From Oceanotoga teriensis (GTDB lineage: Bacteria > Thermotogota > Thermotogae > Petrotogales > Petrotogaceae): a DNA stretch of 64,000 bases. The stretch covers positions 1 through 64,000 of the forward strand of contig NZ_QGGI01000015.1 of assembly GCF_003148465.1 (NCBI RefSeq). The letters are read 5' to 3'. Below the pieces are notes generated by a model that saw only the letters and a list, made by a program, of their open reading frames with translations, was not told where the DNA came from and made no database searches. How positions within the stretch are numbered: the stretch's first letter is position 1; each line of letters opens with the position of its first letter. Positions 31,867 through 42,247 of this stretch are shown here, one piece after another. The translations under genes were made by a program, and so were the position numbers.

Positions 31867-31880
31867 TTTCATTATTGTTT
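31848..31880. terminator. Bidirectional terminator
   Basis: A 14-bp stem (31848-31861 with 31867-31880) has flanking A and T runs. It spans the stop codons of the convergent small DNA-binding gene and the GT2 gene. Confidence 0.88.
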
Positions 31881-34712
31881 TTTATCTTTATCTTCAAAAC
31901 CTATTCTTTCAAATTTTGACCAACCCATAGGTTTTTTTAGAGAATTATTAAAAGCATTTAATCTTACAAAACTCATGAACTGTCTTGGACCAAAATTTTC
32001 TAAAAATGAAAAAAGGATTAACAAAAAAGTTTCTTTTTTACTGAAATAATTAACTTCATCTTCGGCTATTATTAGAGAAGCTAAAGAAGTTGTTACACCT
32101 ATAAATATTGTTGTTAAAAACAATAAAAAACCCATTTTCAAACTTAAAATATTAAAAAATCCTGCTAATACTATCATAAGATATCCTTGTATTTCTATTA
32201 AAGGTCCTATTAATTCAAATATAAAAAAATAAGGAATAGATATGAATCCCATTTTTCCATATCGTGGATTAAACATTAGATTTCTATGAAAAATCAAAAT
32301 ATCTATAAGACCTCTATGCCATCTATCTCTTTGTTTATAAAGGTTTAAATAGCTTGGTGGTACTTCAGTCCAACAATTGGCATTGTATGAATAACCTATT
32401 TTATGTTTAATTTTTTTATCATACATATCTCTATTGATTCTTACTACAAGTTCCATATCTTCACCAACTGTATCTTTCTTGTACTTTCCTTGTTCAGATA
32501 AATATCCTCCAGCTTCTATAATTCTTTTACGATTAAAAAGACCAAAAGCTCCAGAAATTATCAACATTGAATTTATTCTTGCCCAGCCGAGCCTTCCTGC
32601 CATGAAAGATCTTATATATTCAACAGTTTGAAATCTTTCTATTGTTTTGAATGGTAGATTTATTTTTTCTATATATCCTTTACTAACTTTACAGCCATTC
32701 AAAGGTAAGATATTTCCACCAATTGCTATCATTTCATGATCTGTATCCATTTTTAAACTTGTTATTTTTAAAAGTGCATCAGATTCAAGTATAGAATCTG
32801 CATCTATTCCACAGAAGAATTCTTTTTTTGATATATTTAAACCAGTATTCAATGAATCAGCTTTTCCACCATTTTCTTTATCTACCACTATTAGTTTTGG
32901 AATAGATTTATTTATATATATACCTCTTATAGGTTTTGTATTCAAATTTTTATTTAATATATAATCTGTTTTTTCAAGATTAAAATAATCTATCAACTTT
33001 TCAAGAGTATCATCTGTTGAACCATCATTAACTACTATAACATCATAATCAGGATACTGTAAGTTTAAAAGTGCATTAGTACTTTCTATTATTATTTCTG
33101 TTTCATTATAAGCTGGAGCTATTATTGATATACCTGGAAGAATTTTAAAAGTATAAAGTAAACCTTTGAACTTTAAATTCCACATTTTTTCTTGATGAAG
33201 TTGTTCAAAGTATGAAATTATTACAAGAATTAAATAAATTGCATTTAATATTACGACATATATTATTAAATACCAATTGAAATCATATATATATAATTTT
33301 AAACCTTCAATAAAAGTTATATCTGGAATTATTTTTCCATGCCTTAAAACAAATAATAAAGGGAAAAATGTAAAAACACCTATTAAAATTTTAATTAAAT
33401 TTTCGATTTTATCTTTTTCTCTTTTAGTATCTTTTTTTGGAGGCTTTTGTATAATTCTTTTTAATGAAAGCTCATTTAAAATTCTTTTATTTATATATAA
33501 TTGAAACTCTTTTTTTATGTATTCATTTTTTTTAATTGCTTTTTTTAAATAAGGCAAAATAATTCTTTCAATTGGAATATTTTTATTTTTATTTAAAAAG
33601 TCTATTGTATCTCCTATTACATCACTCAATATTATGTTATATATTAAATTTGCATATTTATCTTTTTCATTCGTTAATAATTTAAAGAAAAAATATTCTA
33701 TCTTAATTGATATTACATTCGCTAAATTTTTTTTAATTTTATTGTTTTTTTCATTTTCAAATATATCTATTAAATACTCTAAAAATTTAGGGTTTTCTCT
33801 AAGAATATTAGAAAGAGAATATATGGCGTATTCATAAGTTTCATCATTTTCTAAAAATGGAATTAACTGATCTATATTTTCTTTTGTATTTATTTTAGAA
33901 AGTGTTTTTATTACAGTTTTTTGTATTTGCAAATCTTTATTGTATAAATAATATGCATCATTCAATATGTTAAAATAATTTTTTGAAAGACTTTGAACAG
34001 CTGCTCTTGATATTTCTATATTTTCGTCTCTTGATTTTGATATTAAATAACTTTTTAACTTTGTATCCATATAATGTGATGCAAAATATATTATCATCAT
34101 TTGTATTTCTATTTCTTTTCTGTCCAATATAGTTAGTATATAATCATGAAAATCATTTTCAAATTTTGACAACATTACTTGAATTTTTTCCTTGTAAGGT
34201 TTTGGAGAGTTTATAAGACTTTCAACTAAAATAGGTATAGAATTTTTATTATGTATTTTATATAAAGAGTAAGCTATATATAATTTTATTATATAATCAT
34301 TTTCATTTTCAAATTTTTCTTCTAAAACTAAGCGACATTCCTCAGTTCCTATTTCTCCGAGATAAACTATGGCTTGTATTAAATTACTTTTAATTTTTGA
34401 GTTTATTCTTTTTATATATTTTTTTTCTATATCATATTTTTTTATTAATTCCATGAATTCTTTTTTTGTTTTTTCATCGATCATTATAGATTGATTCATT
34501 TGTGCATATGCTTGCATAAAGTATTTAGGTTCTTCAATTTTAATTTCAAGGGGATTATTTATATTTTTTGATATTAAATTTTGCATATTATTTAATTTAA
34601 TTCTTTGATATTTTTTTAAATATTTTTCTAATATAATTCCTATTATCAAAAGTGTATCGATTATGGCAAAGAATATAAAAAGATTTATTATTATTTGTTT
34701 ATCTAAAATCAT
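31872..34712 (-). CDS. HEAT-repeat-fused processive family 2 glycosyltransferase
   Basis: This inner-membrane polysaccharide synthase has 946 residues. An N-terminal membrane helix (about 8-27) is followed by about 300 residues of HEAT-like helical repeats (about 100-410), then two helices (about 440-500). The GT2 catalytic domain has APAYNETE (about 533), VNDGSTDD (about 566), GIDADS (about 638), GED (751) and QRDRWHRG (QxxRW, about 796). More membrane helices close the protein. QxxRW marks processive enzymes such as PgaC, BcsA and HasA. The HEAT part is probably cytoplasmic and could dock a regulator. It starts 6 nt after the pseudoenzyme gene, with its AAGGAG site inside that gene's end. 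Confidence 0.85.
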   Translation of the reverse strand: MILDKQIIINLFIFFAIIDTLLIIGIILEKYLKKYQRIKLNNMQNLISKNINNPLEIKIEEPKYFMQAYAQMNQSIMIDEKTKKEFMELIKKYDIEKKYIKRINSKIKSNLIQAIVYLGEIGTEECRLVLEEKFENENDYIIKLYIAYSLYKIHNKNSIPILVESLINSPKPYKEKIQVMLSKFENDFHDYILTILDRKEIEIQMMIIYFASHYMDTKLKSYLISKSRDENIEISRAAVQSLSKNYFNILNDAYYLYNKDLQIQKTVIKTLSKINTKENIDQLIPFLENDETYEYAIYSLSNILRENPKFLEYLIDIFENEKNNKIKKNLANVISIKIEYFFFKLLTNEKDKYANLIYNIILSDVIGDTIDFLNKNKNIPIERIILPYLKKAIKKNEYIKKEFQLYINKRILNELSLKRIIQKPPKKDTKREKDKIENLIKILIGVFTFFPLLFVLRHGKIIPDITFIEGLKLYIYDFNWYLIIYVVILNAIYLILVIISYFEQLHQEKMWNLKFKGLLYTFKILPGISIIAPAYNETEIIIESTNALLNLQYPDYDVIVVNDGSTDDTLEKLIDYFNLEKTDYILNKNLNTKPIRGIYINKSIPKLIVVDKENGGKADSLNTGLNISKKEFFCGIDADSILESDALLKITSLKMDTDHEMIAIGGNILPLNGCKVSKGYIEKINLPFKTIERFQTVEYIRSFMAGRLGWARINSMLIISGAFGLFNRKRIIEAGGYLSEQGKYKKDTVGEDMELVVRINRDMYDKKIKHKIGYSYNANCWTEVPPSYLNLYKQRDRWHRGLIDILIFHRNLMFNPRYGKMGFISIPYFFIFELIGPLIEIQGYLMIVLAGFFNILSLKMGFLLFLTTIFIGVTTSLASLIIAEDEVNYFSKKETFLLILFSFLENFGPRQFMSFVRLNAFNNSLKKPMGWSKFERIGFEDKDKKQ

Positions 34713-34718
34713 AAAAAT

Positions 34719-36671
34719 TCAACTCCTTATTTTATTTTTTATTATTTCAAGGAGTTCACCAGTTGAATAAGGTTTTTTAAAAAAATAACTTATATCTAAA
34801 GCATAGGCTCTTTTGACATTTTCATAACTTTTTTCATAATCTATTATTATATACATTATTTCTTTTAAAGAAGAGTATTTTATCATCTCTTCTCTTACAC
34901 GAAAACCATCTATTTTTGGAAGCATTATAGATGTTATTACAAGATCTGGAAAGTTTTCTTTTATTAATTTTAAAGAGGTTTCTCCATCTGAACAAGTAAA
35001 AACGAGATAACCAAGATTTTCAAGTAATTCTTTAAGAGTTTTTTTATGCATTTCATCCGTGTCTACTATTAAAATCTTTCCTTTAGTATCTACAAATTTT
35101 TTGAGCATGGCATCTGAATAAACCATATTCATTCCTGTATTTTTAGCTATTTTAAGCCTTATCATTGCAAGATTATATATTTCATCTACCATTTCATCAG
35201 ATATTAATCTATTATCTTTTATTTCATCGGTTTCAACTACTGCAACAGATACAGTTATATGTTCTATAAACCTTTCAGATAAAGATATTGTATTTCTTAT
35301 TTCATCTGCAATTTCATAAGCCTTTTCTTTGGATATTTCTTGATCTGATATATAATAGGCAAATAAAGCCCCTTTTAATTTAAAAATATGATCTTGTGGC
35401 CTTTTTAAATCTCTTAAAATATAAGAAATTATTTTTAAGGTTTCATCACCAGCATCATTACCATAATCAAAATTTATTTTTGATAAATTATCTGTATCTA
35501 TGAATATAATATATCCTTTTTCATTATTTTTTTCCATTTTTGCTATTTCTGTATTTAAATAATTGAGAAAATATTTACCATTGTATAATTTTGTAAGAGG
35601 ATTGATTAAAGATCTTTTATGGATTTTATTTAATTCATCTTCAAGTTTTCTTTTTTCTTCTTTTAAATCTTCGATTTCTTTTTCATTTTTATATATGTAT
35701 GAATTAAATATTTCTGGAATTTCCATTTCAACAAGTCTCTCTTTTACTATGTCTTCAGCTATTATTAAATGTCTTACACCATAATTATGATAAATTATTT
35801 CTAAAAATAAATTTAATAATTTTTTTGAACTTGTTTTAGTTTTGATTATTTTATTATCTTTTATTTTTATTTCTGTGGATTTAAAAATATTTAAAAAACT
35901 CAATCCATAAGATTTTATATATAATTCTATTATTTCATTTATAGTGTTTAAAAATATATCATTTTTATTGTCTATATTCTTATGAAAATTTAATTTTCCA
36001 CATTTAAGATCTTTTAAAATTTCTAAATATAGATTTATATTTTCTTTTATAATTCCTCCATATGTCGGTAAAATCATTTGGATTTGCAAGTCTTTTAGTT
36101 TAAAATAAATATTTTCAAGTAAATCTTCTGAAGATATAAAATACTCGAGATATGATTTTATATATTTAATAGAATTTTTATTTGAATAAATTGAGAATTC
36201 TTTATTAAAACAAGAAAAAATATTTCCACTGAAAAGGAAATCATTATAAACACATATAAAATTTTCTGGATGAGGTGTATAAGGTATGGGCAAAAATTTC
36301 AATTGTTCTCCATTTTTCAAATTTAAATTATTTTTATTTTGATTTATAAAATAAAATTCGGATTTTAAATTGAATAATTTTATTGATTCACCAGTACGCC
36401 AATGTGTTATTATTTTACCTTTAAAACCATTATCTTCAAATTTGTTAATTGCAGAACAATTTGAAGTATCTCTCAATACTATATAATCTAAATCTTTGAT
36501 TTCAGATATTTCTGAGATTGATTTTTTTATAGAATCAAATTCTTTAATAGATCCACAACCAAAAAGTATTTTTTCTTCATCAAAATTTAGAAGATAAATA
36601 TTGTTTTGAAGATGATTTATTAATTTATCATTTCCAATTCTAAATATATGATCATTTATTTTATATATCAT
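34719..36671 (-). CDS. Pseudoenzyme: metallo-beta-lactamase (ODP)-like + GGDEF + receiver, all catalytic sites lost; probable c-di-GMP receptor
   Basis: This cytoplasmic protein has 650 residues. Residues 1-220 resemble the ODP/flavodiiron beta-lactamase fold (PHPENF at 133-138, FLFSGNIF, LPTYGG), but the HxExDH site reads RDTSNC (67-72), the bridging Asp is Asn150 and the last His is Tyr. A coiled linker leads to a GGDEF domain (about 355-520) whose active site is KGALF (433-437). The inhibitory-site motif RPQD (424-427) is kept at the exact five-residue distance. The receiver (about 528-650) has Ser581 in place of the phosphorylated Asp. It therefore probably binds c-di-GMP without making it and controls the co-transcribed glycosyltransferase, as PelD does for Pel. 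The c-di-GMP role is inference. Confidence 0.75.
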   Translation of the reverse strand: MIYKINDHIFRIGNDKLINHLQNNIYLLNFDEEKILFGCGSIKEFDSIKKSISEISEIKDLDYIVLRDTSNCSAINKFEDNGFKGKIITHWRTGESIKLFNLKSEFYFINQNKNNLNLKNGEQLKFLPIPYTPHPENFICVYNDFLFSGNIFSCFNKEFSIYSNKNSIKYIKSYLEYFISSEDLLENIYFKLKDLQIQMILPTYGGIIKENINLYLEILKDLKCGKLNFHKNIDNKNDIFLNTINEIIELYIKSYGLSFLNIFKSTEIKIKDNKIIKTKTSSKKLLNLFLEIIYHNYGVRHLIIAEDIVKERLVEMEIPEIFNSYIYKNEKEIEDLKEEKRKLEDELNKIHKRSLINPLTKLYNGKYFLNYLNTEIAKMEKNNEKGYIIFIDTDNLSKINFDYGNDAGDETLKIISYILRDLKRPQDHIFKLKGALFAYYISDQEISKEKAYEIADEIRNTISLSERFIEHITVSVAVVETDEIKDNRLISDEMVDEIYNLAMIRLKIAKNTGMNMVYSDAMLKKFVDTKGKILIVDTDEMHKKTLKELLENLGYLVFTCSDGETSLKLIKENFPDLVITSIMLPKIDGFRVREEMIKYSSLKEIMYIIIDYEKSYENVKRAYALDISYFFKKPYSTGELLEIIKNKIRS

Positions 36672-36711
36672 AGTAACTCCTCAATAATTTTAATTTATTA
36701 AATTATATCAA

Positions 36712-36735
36712 AATAGGGGCGATAGAGCCCCTATT
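36712..36735 (-). terminator. Terminator of the lipoprotein pair
   Basis: AATAGGGGC pairs with GCCCCTATT (loop 6 nt), followed by TTTT on the minus strand. It starts 11 nt after the downstream lipoprotein reading frame ends and separates this unit from the pseudoenzyme-GT2 unit. Confidence 0.8.
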
Positions 36736-36746
36736 ATATAAAATGA

Positions 36747-38137
36747 TTATTTCAACATTAATGTATAATATAATATTCCGGAATTTCCTGCCGCTAAGAG
36801 CATTAAAATTTTATTTTTATTATTTTGAAATGATTTAGTTTCTATGAAATTAGGAGATGCATCATATAGATTTTCTACATCTTTATAAACAGGATCTTCT
36901 TCATTCAATATTTCTGTTCCAATTAAATTTAGACTATTATTATCTAAAATTATTTCATGAATACTAAAGCCGGAAGATATTTTTTTATCTATATCTTCAT
37001 AAAAGAATGTATTAAAAGCAATTTTTTTATCATTAATTAATGAATATGAAACGCCATTAGAAGTTATTTTATTTCCATTCAATTCATCAAAAGTCATTTT
37101 TTTATTGCTCATATAGGAATAGTATCCAAACCCATTTTCTGACATTGAATATAAGAAATTAAAATTATCTGGCCAATAATTGCCAAAGAATTGTACAGTT
37201 GCTTTAGCTTCTGTATAGTTACCATTTTTATTTCCAAATCTTCCTATATCTTGAATTTTTTCTATTCTTGTTTCTCCATTGTTTAATCTAAATAATGTTC
37301 CATTGTCTCCAGATATTCCATAAATATAATTATCATATTTTGCAAGGTCTTTTATATCATCATATGAAATTATATAATTTACTTTGTTTAGCTGATTGTT
37401 ATATGCTGCTAAACCACCATATCTTGCAAGGGTGACATAATAAAATTGTTCATAAGATATACCTGTTACTGTATTAGGTGCAAGCAATAAATCATCCGCA
37501 TCTTTCATATTCCATGAGCCCGAATTTATATCTTTTGCATCTGATATATCATTTTTTACAAGTCTTAAATTATTTTCTATTTGATTTTTTATAGTAGTTT
37601 TATTCAAGCTAGTTTTATTAAAATAATCAAATTTACTTATAAAAGGTACTGAAACATTATCATCATTTAAAATATTTCCACCAAATACAATTTCATTTAA
37701 TTTTTTATTATAATAAAGTGTATTTATATCAGCATTATTAAATTTTATTTCTGTAAATATTTTTGGATTATTATCATTTGAAAAATCTATTATTTGAATG
37801 GCACCTTTTGCATCTTCTCCAGCAAGATTATAAGCTATAAACACTATATCATATCATTTTTGTTCATAATTATATCATTTGCTTGTACATTTACACCATC
37901 AATTTCAACAGGTTTTATATTTCCTCTATAATTAAGATTTATACCTGCATGAGTATTACTTTTTGTTGTTTGTAGGGTTATCGTAGAATCTTGCGTTTCA
38001 ATTTCTTGTTCTTCTAAGTTTATATCGATTTTATCAAATTTTGCATCATATCTTTTATAGTCTTGTTTTTTTGGTACACAAGATACAAATAATATGGATA
38101 TTATTGTGAGCATCGATATCAATAATATTTTTTTCAT
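36747..38137 (-). pseudogene. LVIVD/propeller-like lipoprotein, frameshifted by a 5-bp duplication
   Basis: The first frame (from an ATG at 38137) encodes a lipoprotein signal ending LFVSC. It runs to GVNVQANDIIMNKND and stops at once. The second frame continues as VFIAYNLAGEDAKGAIQIIDFS to the end at 36747. The intact upstream paralogue reads straight through the same place (VQANDITSYDNYSVIAYNTAGDDVKG). The break is a tandem pentamer, ATATC ATATC on the plus strand at 37846-37855; removing one copy restores a 460-residue-class protein. It may be a recent pseudogene, a phase-variable gene or a sequencing error. Unlike the paralogue, it lacks the last roughly 185 residues. Confidence 0.8.
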
Positions 38138-38161
38138 TTTTTTCACCAACCAATTTAAAAA

Positions 38162-40000
38162 TTAATTTTTATAAATATTTATTATTTCATCTAAAGGTTT
38201 TTCTTGATAATCGAATCTTAAAATGAAACTAACATTTTTATTTAAAATATTTTTGTATTTTAGATGAAATATTAATTGACCTTTTCCATCATTACCATCT
38301 TTATCATAATAAATGTCAAAATTATCAGAGTTTAAACCACTTACAGATGTATATGTCATATTGTTTTTAGAAATAAAACCATCTTCGATTATATATATTC
38401 CAAGATATTTATTCTCGCCATTAAAAGATTTTGAAAATGTTGATCCCATTTTTAAATGAATTCCTTTTTCGTTTCTTGAAATATTAGGTGATACTATTGA
38501 TTTTTCGTATTCTTTAGTATCTATTTCTTCTATTTTAGTAGGAGTATTTTCAAAATGTTTGAAAATTCCAAGCTCACTTGAAAAAAGACTATTTTCTTCT
38601 AAATATATAAAATTTAGTCCAACATTGCTTATATTTTCTTTGAATTCAATTTTTTTTGAAATTTTTTCAAAGTTATTGAAATTTGTATAATAATCTTTTG
38701 ATTTTTCTAAGTTTGTGTATGTAACTTCATAATTATATTTTATGGAATAAAAAAGTACTCCAGCATTTCCAGCAGCTGCAAAAGCATATTTATCAGTGTA
38801 TTCTAAAAGTCCATCTTTTTTATTATAATTTCTAACATATACAAAATTAGGTGATGCATTTTTTATTTCAGAACCATATTTATCAGAAGTAAAAATTTCA
38901 GATCCTACATTTTCAACTTTAAATTTTATTTCGCCATTTTCAACTATTAATTTAGGATAATAAATTTTAAATCCTGATTCTGTACCATTTGTATAAGATG
39001 CTAATATCAATCCTGGATCATAAGAAATGCTATTTACAGTATAATTATTTTCTTCAAATTTTGAATTTGTTTCATCAATTGGATTTAAAGTTTGAACTTC
39101 AAATCCATTATTTCCAAGTGAATAGGCAAAAGTTCCATTTTCTATTATTTCTAGAGTTGCTTTTCCATCTGTATCAAAAACTTTTGAATTTATTTCAGAT
39201 GATGAACTTAAATCTGAATTTATTTGATATATAACTCCTTTTTCACCTGATAATGCGTATATTTTTTGGTTTGAGATTTTCATATCTTTTATATCTTGAA
39301 AATCTTTGCTGTCTTTTAAATAATTTAAATTTGAGTCTAATTTTATTAAACCACCTTTTTTAGCTATAGACACAAAAATATTGGAATTTAATTCTACAAT
39401 AGAAGTTACAACATTATATTCATCGAATATTATTTCAGATTCAATATTATTTATATGATTTACATATCTTATACTATTTACTATATTTTCAGCATTTATA
39501 TCACTTAAATCAATTTTACCAACTATTGGTTCAGTATTTCCATTTTGCATTTTTGTTATCCCACCGAATATTATTTCATCAGTATTTTTATTATATTCAA
39601 TTGCATTGATTTCATGAGATGAGAAAGTAATTCTGTAATCAACAACAGGTTTGTTTGGGTTTGATACATCTATTATTTGAATAGCTCCTTTTACATCATC
39701 TCCGGCAGTATTATAAGCTATTACTGAATAGTTATCATAAGATGTTATATCATTTGCCTGTACTTTTACATCTTCTACCATCATTGAATTTATTTTTGCT
39801 TTATAATATATTTGATAATTGTCATCATTATCTCTTGATTTCGATTCTTCAATATAAGTTACAGCATTTTTTGGATTTTTTATTATATTTATACTATCAT
39901 ATTGTGTTATATCTTCATTAAATTCTTTTTTCTGTGGAAGACATGATACTAAAAGAATAGATGTTATCAAAATAGTCATTATTAAATAAATTTTTTTCAT
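38162..40000 (-). CDS. LVIVD/beta-propeller-like lipoprotein of the polysaccharide locus
   Basis: This exported lipoprotein has 612 residues, with signal MKKIYLIMTILITSILLVSC (Cys20). Residues about 80-420 form repeats with the pattern GAIQIIDVSNPNKPVV, close to the LVIVD repeat, and end YAFAAAGNAGVLFYS, so a beta-propeller is likely. A further region of about 185 residues (about 425-612) is unique to this copy. The tandem downstream gene is a shorter paralogue. The pair lies between the glycosyltransferase unit and the TPR-barrel gene. A surface or periplasmic role in polysaccharide retention or export is inferred from place only. Confidence 0.65.
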   Translation of the reverse strand: MKKIYLIMTILITSILLVSCLPQKKEFNEDITQYDSINIIKNPKNAVTYIEESKSRDNDDNYQIYYKAKINSMMVEDVKVQANDITSYDNYSVIAYNTAGDDVKGAIQIIDVSNPNKPVVDYRITFSSHEINAIEYNKNTDEIIFGGITKMQNGNTEPIVGKIDLSDINAENIVNSIRYVNHINNIESEIIFDEYNVVTSIVELNSNIFVSIAKKGGLIKLDSNLNYLKDSKDFQDIKDMKISNQKIYALSGEKGVIYQINSDLSSSSEINSKVFDTDGKATLEIIENGTFAYSLGNNGFEVQTLNPIDETNSKFEENNYTVNSISYDPGLILASYTNGTESGFKIYYPKLIVENGEIKFKVENVGSEIFTSDKYGSEIKNASPNFVYVRNYNKKDGLLEYTDKYAFAAAGNAGVLFYSIKYNYEVTYTNLEKSKDYYTNFNNFEKISKKIEFKENISNVGLNFIYLEENSLFSSELGIFKHFENTPTKIEEIDTKEYEKSIVSPNISRNEKGIHLKMGSTFSKSFNGENKYLGIYIIEDGFISKNNMTYTSVSGLNSDNFDIYYDKDGNDGKGQLIFHLKYKNILNKNVSFILRFDYQEKPLDEIINIYKN

Positions 40001-40021
40001 ATAAACCCCTCCCTAATTAAT

Positions 40022-40054
40022 AGTCTTTATTAAATTATACTTAATATATGTATA
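40022..40054 (-). promoter_or_regulatory. Putative promoter of the lipoprotein pair
   Basis: On the minus strand a TAGACT-like -35 and a TATAAT -10 are separated by 17 nt, upstream of the lipoprotein ATG at 40000, which has a GGAGGGG site. Confidence 0.4.
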
Positions 40055-40096
40055 CAAGTCTATTTGAAAGTAACATATTTAAATAATTTAAGTAAA

Positions 40097-40154
40097 ATAT
40101 AAGTAACGATAAAATTACTATTTTTTGTTATGGAAACTTAATCGTTACTTATAT
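40097..40154. repeat. 14-bp inverted repeat in the divergent promoter region
   Basis: ATATAAGTAACGAT (40097-40110) is the perfect reverse complement of 40141-40154, with 30 nt between. A further AAGTAAC half-site is at 40068-40074, 33 bp (about three helical turns) before the one at 40101. The right arm lies over the -35 region of the plus-strand promoter. A cooperative regulator site is likely. Confidence 0.65.
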
Positions 40155-40168
40155 GAAAAACAAAAAAT

Positions 40169-40177
40169 TGATATAAT
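40169..40177 (+). promoter_or_regulatory. Extended -10 promoter of the TPR-barrel gene
   Basis: TGATATAAT gives an extended -10 (TGnTATAAT) about 40 nt before the ATG at 40218. An AGGAGGG ribosome site follows. The right arm of the inverted repeat overlaps its -35 area. Confidence 0.5.
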
Positions 40178-40217
40178 ATATTGAAATCTTAAATTGAGAA
40201 GATAAGAGGAGGGAAAT

Positions 40218-41243
40218 ATGAAAAAAAATTTTTTGATTTTATTAATTTTTATTTTTAGTTTTATAAATGTTTTTTCTATAAATTATGATGAATTGACTCA
40301 AGAAGCAAGAGCTTTAGCTTGGAGTGGAGAATATAAAAAAGCTATAAATATATATGAGAATTTAATAAGAGAATATCAAAATAAAGAAGTTTATCTTGAT
40401 TATTCAAATGCACTTGCTTGGAGTGGAGATATAAAAAAAGCTATAAATCTTTTAAACTCTTTTGAGGGTGAAGATTCTGATATTGAAATGAGAAAAGCAA
40501 GATTTTTTTATTGGAATTTAAATTTTTCTGAAGCTTATAATATATTTTCAAAATATAAAAAAGATGAACTTGAAGAAAGTGATTTAGCTTTCATTAATTG
40601 GTATGAAGAATATAAACATTTTTTTATAAAAACTTCATATATCACTGATTTTTTGAAAGAGAATAGGGAGAATCAGTTTAATATATATATGGCTTATAAT
40701 TATTATGATGTTTTTTCTGTAGCATTAAAATTTGATAATTTCTTTTTTGATGATGAATACAGAGTTGGGAAATCTTTAATAGAATTTTATTATGATGATT
40801 TTTTTTCTTTATTGGGTATAAGTCATAATCAATATTATATAGCTGAATTTGGTTATGTTTTTAAACCATTTACTCTAGGGTTTAAATCTACAAAATACCT
40901 TGAGAATTATGATGAATTTATAAAAAGTACTTCTGTTAATGGAGGGTATTTTGTTTTTAATTTTGTGTTGGAAAATATAGAGTTTTTACTAAGAGCTAAT
41001 TTAGATTTTATTTATAAGGATTATTTTTATAAGGATCCTGAAAATGATTTAGTTTTTTCTTATTTGATTGGTAGTACTTATAAAAACTTTGGATTTAAAC
41101 ATTATTTTGATTTAAAAGAGTTGAATAAAAGTTTTATAGAATACAAGGATAATATTTGTGATTTTAATTATTCAATTAGTTTTTATTATGATTTTTTTAA
41201 GAAAAATTTTGGAGCGGGTATTTCTTTAGGATACTCTTTTTAA
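40218..41243 (+). CDS. TPR plus outer-membrane beta-barrel protein (PgaA/YaiO type)
   Basis: This protein has 341 residues. A signal peptide (MKKNFLILLIFIFSFINVFS) is followed by TPR-like repeats (about 25-130), in which LAWSGEYKKAINIYENLI and LAWSGDIKKAINLL are successive units. A beta-barrel part of roughly 200 residues ends GISLGYSF with a C-terminal Phe. This is a compact version of PgaA/YaiO-type proteins, in which periplasmic TPRs lead an exopolysaccharide to an outer-membrane pore. It is divergent from the lipoproteins and shares a TTAA stop overlap with the convergent glycosidase-like gene. Confidence 0.7.
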   Translation: MKKNFLILLIFIFSFINVFSINYDELTQEARALAWSGEYKKAINIYENLIREYQNKEVYLDYSNALAWSGDIKKAINLLNSFEGEDSDIEMRKARFFYWNLNFSEAYNIFSKYKKDELEESDLAFINWYEEYKHFFIKTSYITDFLKENRENQFNIYMAYNYYDVFSVALKFDNFFFDDEYRVGKSLIEFYYDDFFSLLGISHNQYYIAEFGYVFKPFTLGFKSTKYLENYDEFIKSTSVNGGYFVFNFVLENIEFLLRANLDFIYKDYFYKDPENDLVFSYLIGSTYKNFGFKHYFDLKELNKSFIEYKDNICDFNYSISFYYDFFKKNFGAGISLGYSF

Positions 41244-42247
41244 TCATAGTATATAAAATACTCCCAAATCCAGAAGCTATTTTCTACAGCTTCTGGATTT
41301 ATTTTTAAAAAATAAATTTCTTCATTTTGAAGTATTTTTTCATATAATGAATCATTTCTTTGTATATAAAAATCTTCTATTACAATCAATTTTTCAATCT
41401 TATAATGTTTTTGTTCATCAATATATATTTGTTTTGTTTTTGAATATAATGAATCTATGTTATTTATAGTTTTTATAAAATATAAATTTTGATTTCTATG
41501 TAATATTATTCCACTTTCAAGTGAATAAGAAATTTTATAATTTTTTGAATTAAAGTATTTTAAAAGGTTTTCAAGTCTATTTTCATTAAAATTCAATTTT
41601 AATTTATTCTCATGTAAATAATATCCAAAATCTTTTATATAAATCATAGGAACTAAAGTAGCATATTTCGATAATTCAGATTCGTCATAACCTCTGAGTG
41701 AATTTTCTTTTTCGTCCTCTATTATTGATGAGAAGAGAAAAAGTTTTTTTTCGCCTACGATTTTTTTTAGATTTTTTACGATTTCAATCATTTTTTTATT
41801 ATTTTGAAAATTTGAATTTAGATTTATCCATTCAAGATCTATTGCAATTCCATCATATTCTATGTTTGAATTTTCTAAAAATTTTAAGTTTTCTTTTGCG
41901 ATTGTCTCATAATTTTGATATATATATTCAAATTCTTCAGAACCATAACTATCTAAAAACCAAATATATTTTTTTGTTTTTAAATTGTCTAAAAGTGTTT
42001 TTAAATTTTCTTTTGAGGTTTTATAAAAGAATAAACTTCCTTTTTTATAAGCGGTTTCTTTTCCTAGGTGTATTATAGTTTCATCATAATTTTTGTTTAT
42101 ATGTTCTGCCATGTTTTTAAAGTATTGTGTATTTTCATCACGAAAAGTTTTTAGCATTATTGAATCATTTGCTATTATAATCCCTTTTGAGTATATTATT
42201 GTTTGTATTAATGATAAAAGTATTATTAAATATATACTTTTTTTCAT
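41240..42247 (-). CDS. Secreted TIM-barrel glycoside hydrolase-like protein
   Basis: This exported protein has 335 residues, with signal peptide MKKSIYLIILLSLIQTIIYS. The central segment IEYDGIAIDLEWI (Asp132, Asp137, Glu139) has the DxxxxDxE arrangement seen at the end of strand 4 in GH18-like and related (beta/alpha)8 hydrolases. LVPMIYIKDFG and a late barrel strand follow. A PgaB- or PslG-like role of trimming the polymer in the periplasm is inferred from context. Its start overlaps the aldehyde dehydrogenase stop (ATGA) and has only a weak RBS, so it is translated by coupling. Confidence 0.6.
   Translation of the reverse strand: MKKSIYLIILLSLIQTIIYSKGIIIANDSIMLKTFRDENTQYFKNMAEHINKNYDETIIHLGKETAYKKGSLFFYKTSKENLKTLLDNLKTKKYIWFLDSYGSEEFEYIYQNYETIAKENLKFLENSNIEYDGIAIDLEWINLNSNFQNNKKMIEIVKNLKKIVGEKKLFLFSSIIEDEKENSLRGYDESELSKYATLVPMIYIKDFGYYLHENKLKLNFNENRLENLLKYFNSKNYKISYSLESGIILHRNQNLYFIKTINNIDSLYSKTKQIYIDEQKHYKIEKLIVIEDFYIQRNDSLYEKILQNEEIYFLKINPEAVENSFWIWEYFIYYD
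41266..41300 (+). terminator. Terminator embedded in a convergent coding sequence
   Basis: A perfect 13-bp stem (41266-41278 with 41288-41300) has a 9-nt loop and is followed on the plus strand by ATTTTT. It lies 23 nt after the TPR-barrel stop codon but entirely inside the last 20 codons of the convergent glycosidase-like gene. Confidence 0.75.

Follow-up and report, generated by a model that had tools for sequence, protein, structure and literature searches.

A putative exopolysaccharide system in Oceanotoga teriensis pairing a HEAT-fused GT2 synthase with a degenerate ODP-GGDEF-REC regulator

The synthase and regulator genes

The window analysed here is a 64,000-nucleotide stretch of Oceanotoga teriensis DNA (contig NZ_QGGI01000015.1), in which positions 31872 to 42247 carry a GT2 glycosyltransferase fused to HEAT repeats (the synthase), a soluble ODP-GGDEF-REC protein (the regulator), two lipoprotein genes, and genes for a TPR-barrel and a GH18-fold protein (Table 1). 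A preliminary description had proposed a polysaccharide system, functionally analogous to known ones with regulatory parts of its own, and this proposal was supported by the conservation of the synthase-regulator pair across phyla. All functions discussed below are deduced from sequence.

Pfam analysis of the synthase identified Glycos_transf_2 (1.5e-17) and HEAT_2 (9.1e-8), and its QxxRW motif reads QRDRW (residues 794–798), confirming the proposed fusion of a QxxRW GT2 synthase to HEAT repeats. The D, D(x)D, ED, and QxxRW motifs of processive GT2 enzymes were all present together with flanking transmembrane (TM) helices, and D563, D637/D639, E751-D752, and QxxRW were invariant across 13 GT2 homologues; the synthase is therefore probably catalytically active. 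As two helices separate them, the HEAT and GT2 regions would both lie on the cytosolic face. The nearest curated family was PgaC/IcaA (TIGR03937) at 115 bits, which does not reach the equivalog cut-off of 422 bits; relatives' synthases scored 113–130 bits, and PgaC/IcaA was the nearest family in all four synthases scanned. BLAST comparison of the window GT2 gave 26.5% identity to E. coli PgaC (E 9e-24) and 21% to BcsA (E 4e-4).

The regulator and synthase genes are 6 nucleotides apart, a spacing from which we infer co-transcription. Pfam assigned ODP (PF19583; 3.4e-24), GGDEF (4.2e-18), and REC (8.7e-17) domains to the regulator, each of which, in the window copy, is missing the residues expected for catalysis or ligand binding. 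In an alignment of 25 regulators (the window protein and 24 relatives), the GG(D/E)EF active-site motif of diguanylate cyclases was found in none, the window protein reading KGALF at this position. The REC residue Asp57 was substituted in 22 of the 25 (Glu in 19, Ser in 2, Gly in 1), and the window REC has Ser in place of the Asp of a phosphorylatable receiver. The putative di-iron motifs of ODP were complete in 15 regulators, lacked one motif in 1, and were lost in 5, while Pfam did not detect the domain in the remaining 4; the window copy, in which most of the motifs are gone, and that of its nearest relative (genome G038) are among the five. Among PDB entries, the regulator profile matched 6qrq best (E 2.3e-37); like 6qnm, this is an oxygen-binding di-iron protein. 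Because ODP is known as an oxygen sensor from Treponema denticola chemotaxis (PMC7666581) and such di-iron proteins are the best PDB matches, the ancestral signal was probably oxygen or redox. One regulator (L113:5427-7637) has no ODP domain and carries a C-terminal DivIVA domain instead, which may connect it to cell poles or septa. With ODP present, lost, absent, or exchanged for DivIVA while the GGDEF-like/REC-like module stays, the module appears to be the constant part and the sensory region the variable one.

Conservation of the neighbourhood in relatives, which the preliminary description had named as the check on its proposal, was found for this pair. Of the fused loci in Thermotogota, Bacillota, and Spirochaetota, 28 extended far enough upstream to be tested; in 27 of these the regulator lay immediately ahead of the synthase on the same strand, many of the pairs overlapping by 4 bases. 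Related genomes are not independent samples in this count. The one locus that departs from this order, L030, is a broken gene. Carriers of the pair include Acetobacterium, Anaerobium, Thermoclostridium, Syntrophomonadaceae, and others, as well as about 10 genomes reached via a spirochaete locus. Among 103 Thermotogota genomes, the regulator and the synthase occurred together, both at full length, in three, namely the window genome, G038, and G050. Phylogenetic analysis separated fused HEAT-GT2 synthases from GT2-only relatives (support 100/99) and placed the G050 synthase inside a Bacillota clade, suggesting transfer between phyla. The pair constitutes a genuine conserved system.

Table 1. Features of the locus, in window coordinates
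Feature	Position	Strand	Length	Characteristics
HEAT-GT2 synthase	31872–34712	minus	946 aa	Pfam domains and GT2 motifs; N-terminal TM, HEAT ~35–430, two TM, GT2 ~525–800, C-terminal TM cluster
Regulator	34719–36671	minus	650 aa	Degenerate ODP (di-iron metallo-beta-lactamase-like), degenerate GGDEF, degenerate REC; no TM segment
Lipoprotein 2	36747–38149	minus		Tandem paralogue of lipoprotein 1; frameshift near 37844
Lipoprotein 1	38162–40000	minus	612 aa	First gene of putative operon; facultative partner
Divergent control region	40001–40217			Perfect 14-bp inverted repeat, 40097–40110 / 40141–40154
TPR-barrel protein	40218–41243	plus	341 aa	Signal peptide, TPR to ~132, ~14 predicted beta-strands
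GH18-fold protein	41240–42247	minus	335 aa	Secreted, chitinase-like

Split forms and accessory genes

The components of the fused synthase also occur as separate genes. In Mesonia sp. K7 (Bacteroidota), one locus (L031:6273-10598) encodes REC, HEAT, GT2, and a TPR-YaiO barrel as four neighbouring genes, and another (L122:2983-7552) encodes REC, HEAT, GT2, and an LVIVD-repeat lipoprotein related to those of the window. Three spirochaete loci (L123, L124, and L125) share the row REC, TPR protein, HEAT, GT2. A profile of the fused HEAT region matched the split HEAT proteins of L125 (3.4e-12) and L124 (3.6e-9). Each of the five split HEAT proteins begins with an N-terminal TM segment, as the fused HEAT does. 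Since the split neighbours occur in Bacteroidota and some spirochaetes, the fusion unites known partners, and the split forms would represent either the origin of the HEAT-GT2 fusion or its breakup.

A four-Cys insert (CxxC...C...C) was observed within the HEAT region of L018:7824-10853, other Bacillota proteins, and L016:3035-6064; it is possibly metal-binding, is confined to one clade, and is absent from the window and spirochaete proteins. In the 13 loci that have both the insert and a full-length regulator, the ODP motifs are intact throughout. As the insert belongs to one clade, this co-occurrence counts as a single event, and joint loss of the insert and the ODP motifs was rejected as evidence for a redox relay.

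Of the flanking genes, the lipoproteins do form the tandem described earlier and are paralogues, although the second is not intact: a frameshift, either mutation or assembly error, breaks it into 37844–38149 and 36747–37844. Homologues of lipoprotein 1 adjoin the GT2 cassettes of L122 (phmmer 4.2e-12; the L122 protein matches LVIVD repeats) and L123 (5.4e-6), and the homologue in G038 is not linked to the pair; the lipoproteins are optional partners. The genes diverge around a palindromic control region, as had been reported, with the inverted repeat located upstream of a TATAAT sequence that precedes the TPR-barrel gene. This repeat occurs once in the 2.79-Mb genome.

The TPR-barrel protein has the architecture of a TPR-barrel exporter (a signal peptide, N-terminal TPR also found by Pfam, and then beta-strands), and its structure model placed 14 strands after the TPR helices, with low confidence for the strand part. 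It is a candidate outer-membrane exporter that probably forms a beta-barrel. It scored 19.9 bits against the PgaA family (cut-off 366.65) and had no YaiO match. Alignment of its barrel with relatives' barrels by hhalign was no better than a reversed control, and no homology to spirochaete or YaiO barrels was found. The TPR-beta-barrel component of the preliminary description thus stands as an architectural and positional counterpart, with no barrel homology detected; in G038, its homologue adjoins the synthase gene.

No Pfam match was obtained for the protein at 41240–42247, and its profile matched GH18 chitinases best (E 0.015). Its structure model (mean predicted local distance difference test score 61) matched 5jh8 by Foldseek (E 1.8e-7), with structural Z values near 13–15 against GH18 structures across the top 50, refining the secreted TIM-barrel glycosidase-like protein noted earlier to a predicted GH18 (chitinase) fold. 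At the DxxDxDxE position it reads DGIAIDLE, with the last Asp and the Glu kept and the middle Asp absent; Asp137 and Glu139 are conserved. A strong 16-pair terminator-like hairpin (41265–41301, minus strand) lies within the 3' end of this gene, near the stretch where it overlaps the convergent TPR-barrel gene.

G038 has the GH18-fold gene, regulator, synthase, and TPR-barrel gene in one contiguous block, with the GH18-fold gene directly 5' of the regulator. Among the 103 phylum genomes, the GH18-fold protein and the full-length TPR-barrel protein were found only in the window genome and G038, both of which carry the pair and both accessory proteins; elsewhere in the set these two families are nearly absent. 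Neither a recognisable TPR-barrel nor a homologue of the window GH18-like protein was found in Bacillota loci. TPR proteins adjoin the synthase in several loci of spirochaetes, which are diderm, and one of them exceeds the YaiO barrel cut-off. Many Bacillota loci encode a glycoside hydrolase-like protein of about 1055 aa directly downstream of the synthase (L018:10850-14017 and homologues). In L113 the synthase itself carries a homologous piece as a fusion, and G050 retains a remnant (L016:2208-2861). A known-hydrolase affiliation of this protein was rejected, as it had no Pfam or PDB sequence matches. In spirochaetes, similar gene pairs (L105:11135-12964 and L125:2392-4224) adjoin one fused and one split locus; their products are ~450 and ~610 aa long, and the longer one is polysaccharide-deacetylase-like.

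Proposed mechanism and alternatives

We consider it probable that the locus encodes a synthase-dependent exopolysaccharide (EPS) system in which a PgaC-like synthase is controlled by a pseudo-enzyme adaptor docking on the HEAT repeats. The GT2 domain would build a polymer from a sugar nucleotide, in which the sugar is probably an amino sugar, with its own membrane helices serving as the passage for the growing chain. The N-terminal helix would anchor the HEAT repeats on the cytosolic face next to GT2, where they would receive the soluble regulator with its ODP, pseudo-GGDEF, and pseudo-REC domains; the regulator would act as an allosteric adaptor through protein contact, not as an enzyme. The TPR-barrel protein would then export the polymer through the outer membrane, with the GH18-fold protein trimming or releasing it. 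The ancestral input was probably oxygen or redox signalled by the ODP di-iron domain, later lost or replaced several times. Because the di-iron motifs are largely lost in the window copy, its input should now differ: it may be cyclic di-GMP (c-di-GMP) at a lineage-specific RxxD motif, or alternatively partner abundance or transcription via the palindromic divergent region. A bolder version, in which the synthase family is gated directly by oxygen or redox, from ODP through two dead signalling domains to HEAT without a second messenger, and in which the window lineage was rewired to a new input, is conceivable, and we put it forward tentatively and with some doubt.

Several results weigh against the proposed mechanism. 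Docking of the regulator is deduced from gene fusion and neighbourhood. The earlier suggestion that HEAT is the receptor dock is supported indirectly by the membrane-anchored split HEAT proteins encoded between a receiver gene and GT2 in Bacteroidota and Spirochaetota, two of the spirochaete ones being detectably homologous to the fused form; the fused-HEAT profile had no match among the Mesonia HEAT proteins. The REC Asp is retained in 3 of the 25 regulators. Both structure models (TPR-barrel and GH18-fold) were built on two-sequence alignments, the barrel model is of low confidence, and no homology was detected among the barrel halves of the Petrotoga-group, spirochaete, and YaiO forms. Finally, GH16 beta-glucanase-like genes adjoin several loci, which would fit a beta-glucan and not an amino-sugar polymer.

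This last point touches the product. The GH16 genes are of the lichenase/BglS type beside Acetobacterium loci and give weaker matches beside several spirochaete loci, and they indicate a glucan, either cellulose-like or mixed-linkage. An amino sugar is indicated by PgaC/IcaA being the nearest family in 4/4 synthases, by the GH18 fold encoded in the window, and by the polysaccharide-deacetylase-like neighbours in L105 and L125; the match to E. coli PgaC also beats that to BcsA. We therefore regard a beta-glucan product as unlikely. That the enzyme, instead of being a processive polymer synthase, glycosylates a lipid or surface protein appears very improbable: GT2 is a broad family and weak similarity to single-transfer enzymes exists, but QxxRW is invariant, the TM arrangement resembles that of processive synthases, the best match is a polymer synthase, and the neighbours are exporter-like and hydrolase-like. 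It could also be argued that only the pair is a unit and that the lipoprotein, GH18-fold, and TPR-barrel genes are chance neighbours, as the lipoprotein homologue is unlinked in G038 and the GH18-like homologue was not found in Bacillota loci. This seems improbable given that G038 has GH18-fold and TPR-barrel genes on either side of the pair, in another arrangement, while both are nearly absent elsewhere in the phylum, and that lipoprotein homologues adjoin GT2 cassettes in two more genomes.

The remaining alternative concerns c-di-GMP. The preliminary description had presented the three-domain protein as a receptor with a kept c-di-GMP I-site. The domains are there, and RPQD stands in exact I-site register, five residues before the GGDEF position; however, RxxD was found in 0/24 aligned relatives, including G038 of the same family. 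With the I-site unique to the window protein, c-di-GMP reception as the defining control is unsupported. For the window protein itself to be a true receptor, binding c-di-GMP at RPQD and activating the synthase, there are precedents in PelD (PMC8461298) and BcsE (PMC7439463), and the genome has 17 GGDEF-domain matches and a PilZ protein, so that a c-di-GMP messenger network exists in it. Yet the motif is missing from relatives despite the conserved gene pair, and a lone motif in a lone protein could be drift; we judge such a receptor to be rather unlikely.

Comparison with known systems

The best-studied synthase-dependent EPS systems are switched by c-di-GMP. The present family, whose hosts are mostly anaerobes and whose fused or split forms span at least four phyla, seems instead to rely on a protein adaptor assembled from pseudo-enzymes; most fused members include an oxygen-sensor domain. 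If the proposed mechanism is true, matrix production by anaerobes would be tied to their exposure to oxygen, and the regulator would offer a clean example of two signalling enzymes that became structural adaptors; the coexistence of split and fused versions makes HEAT docking directly testable. No published description of HEAT-GT2 or YaiO-GT2 systems was found in the open-access literature, and the HEAT-GT2 family is apparently undescribed.

Pga/Ica systems (PgaABCD, IcaADBC) likewise combine a processive GT2 of the PgaC/IcaA kind, a TPR and barrel protein, and a secreted sugar hydrolase, PgaB being both deacetylase and hydrolase. They differ in that the window synthase falls far short of their family cut-off (115 vs 422 bits) and is fused to HEAT repeats, and the regulator is absent from Pga; neither PgaD nor a deacetylase was seen in the window. 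NfrB-NfrA-YbcH of E. coli also joins a GT2 with a TPR/beta-barrel outer-membrane protein and has an EPS synthase with its own control domain, but in NfrB this is a fused MshEN c-di-GMP domain (PMC8669469), and BLAST of NfrB against the window GT2 gave a short, non-significant match (E 0.04). The mixed-linkage glucan synthase of Romboutsia ilealis was considered as the same system and rejected, because RiGT2 has a PilZ domain (PMC10374906).

BcsE is the nearest precedent for the regulator, as a cytosolic protein with degenerate receiver and GGDEF domains and an extra N-terminal domain (NTD) (PMC7439463). Its order is NTD-REC-GGDEF, unlike ODP-GGDEF-REC here, and it binds c-di-GMP by RxxD, a motif that in the present family occurs in the window protein only. 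PelD similarly uses a degenerate GGDEF domain to control a polysaccharide synthase, but it is membrane-bound with a GAF domain and a conserved RxxD, and the Pel glycosyltransferase is a soluble GT4 (PMC8461298). ODP serves as a di-iron oxygen sensor in Treponema denticola chemotaxis (PMC7666581), whereas here it is fused to GGDEF-REC next to a polysaccharide synthase. The system is thus neither Pga by cut-off nor an I-site system by conservation, and its overall plan is like that of Pga, Pel, Bcs, and NfrBA.

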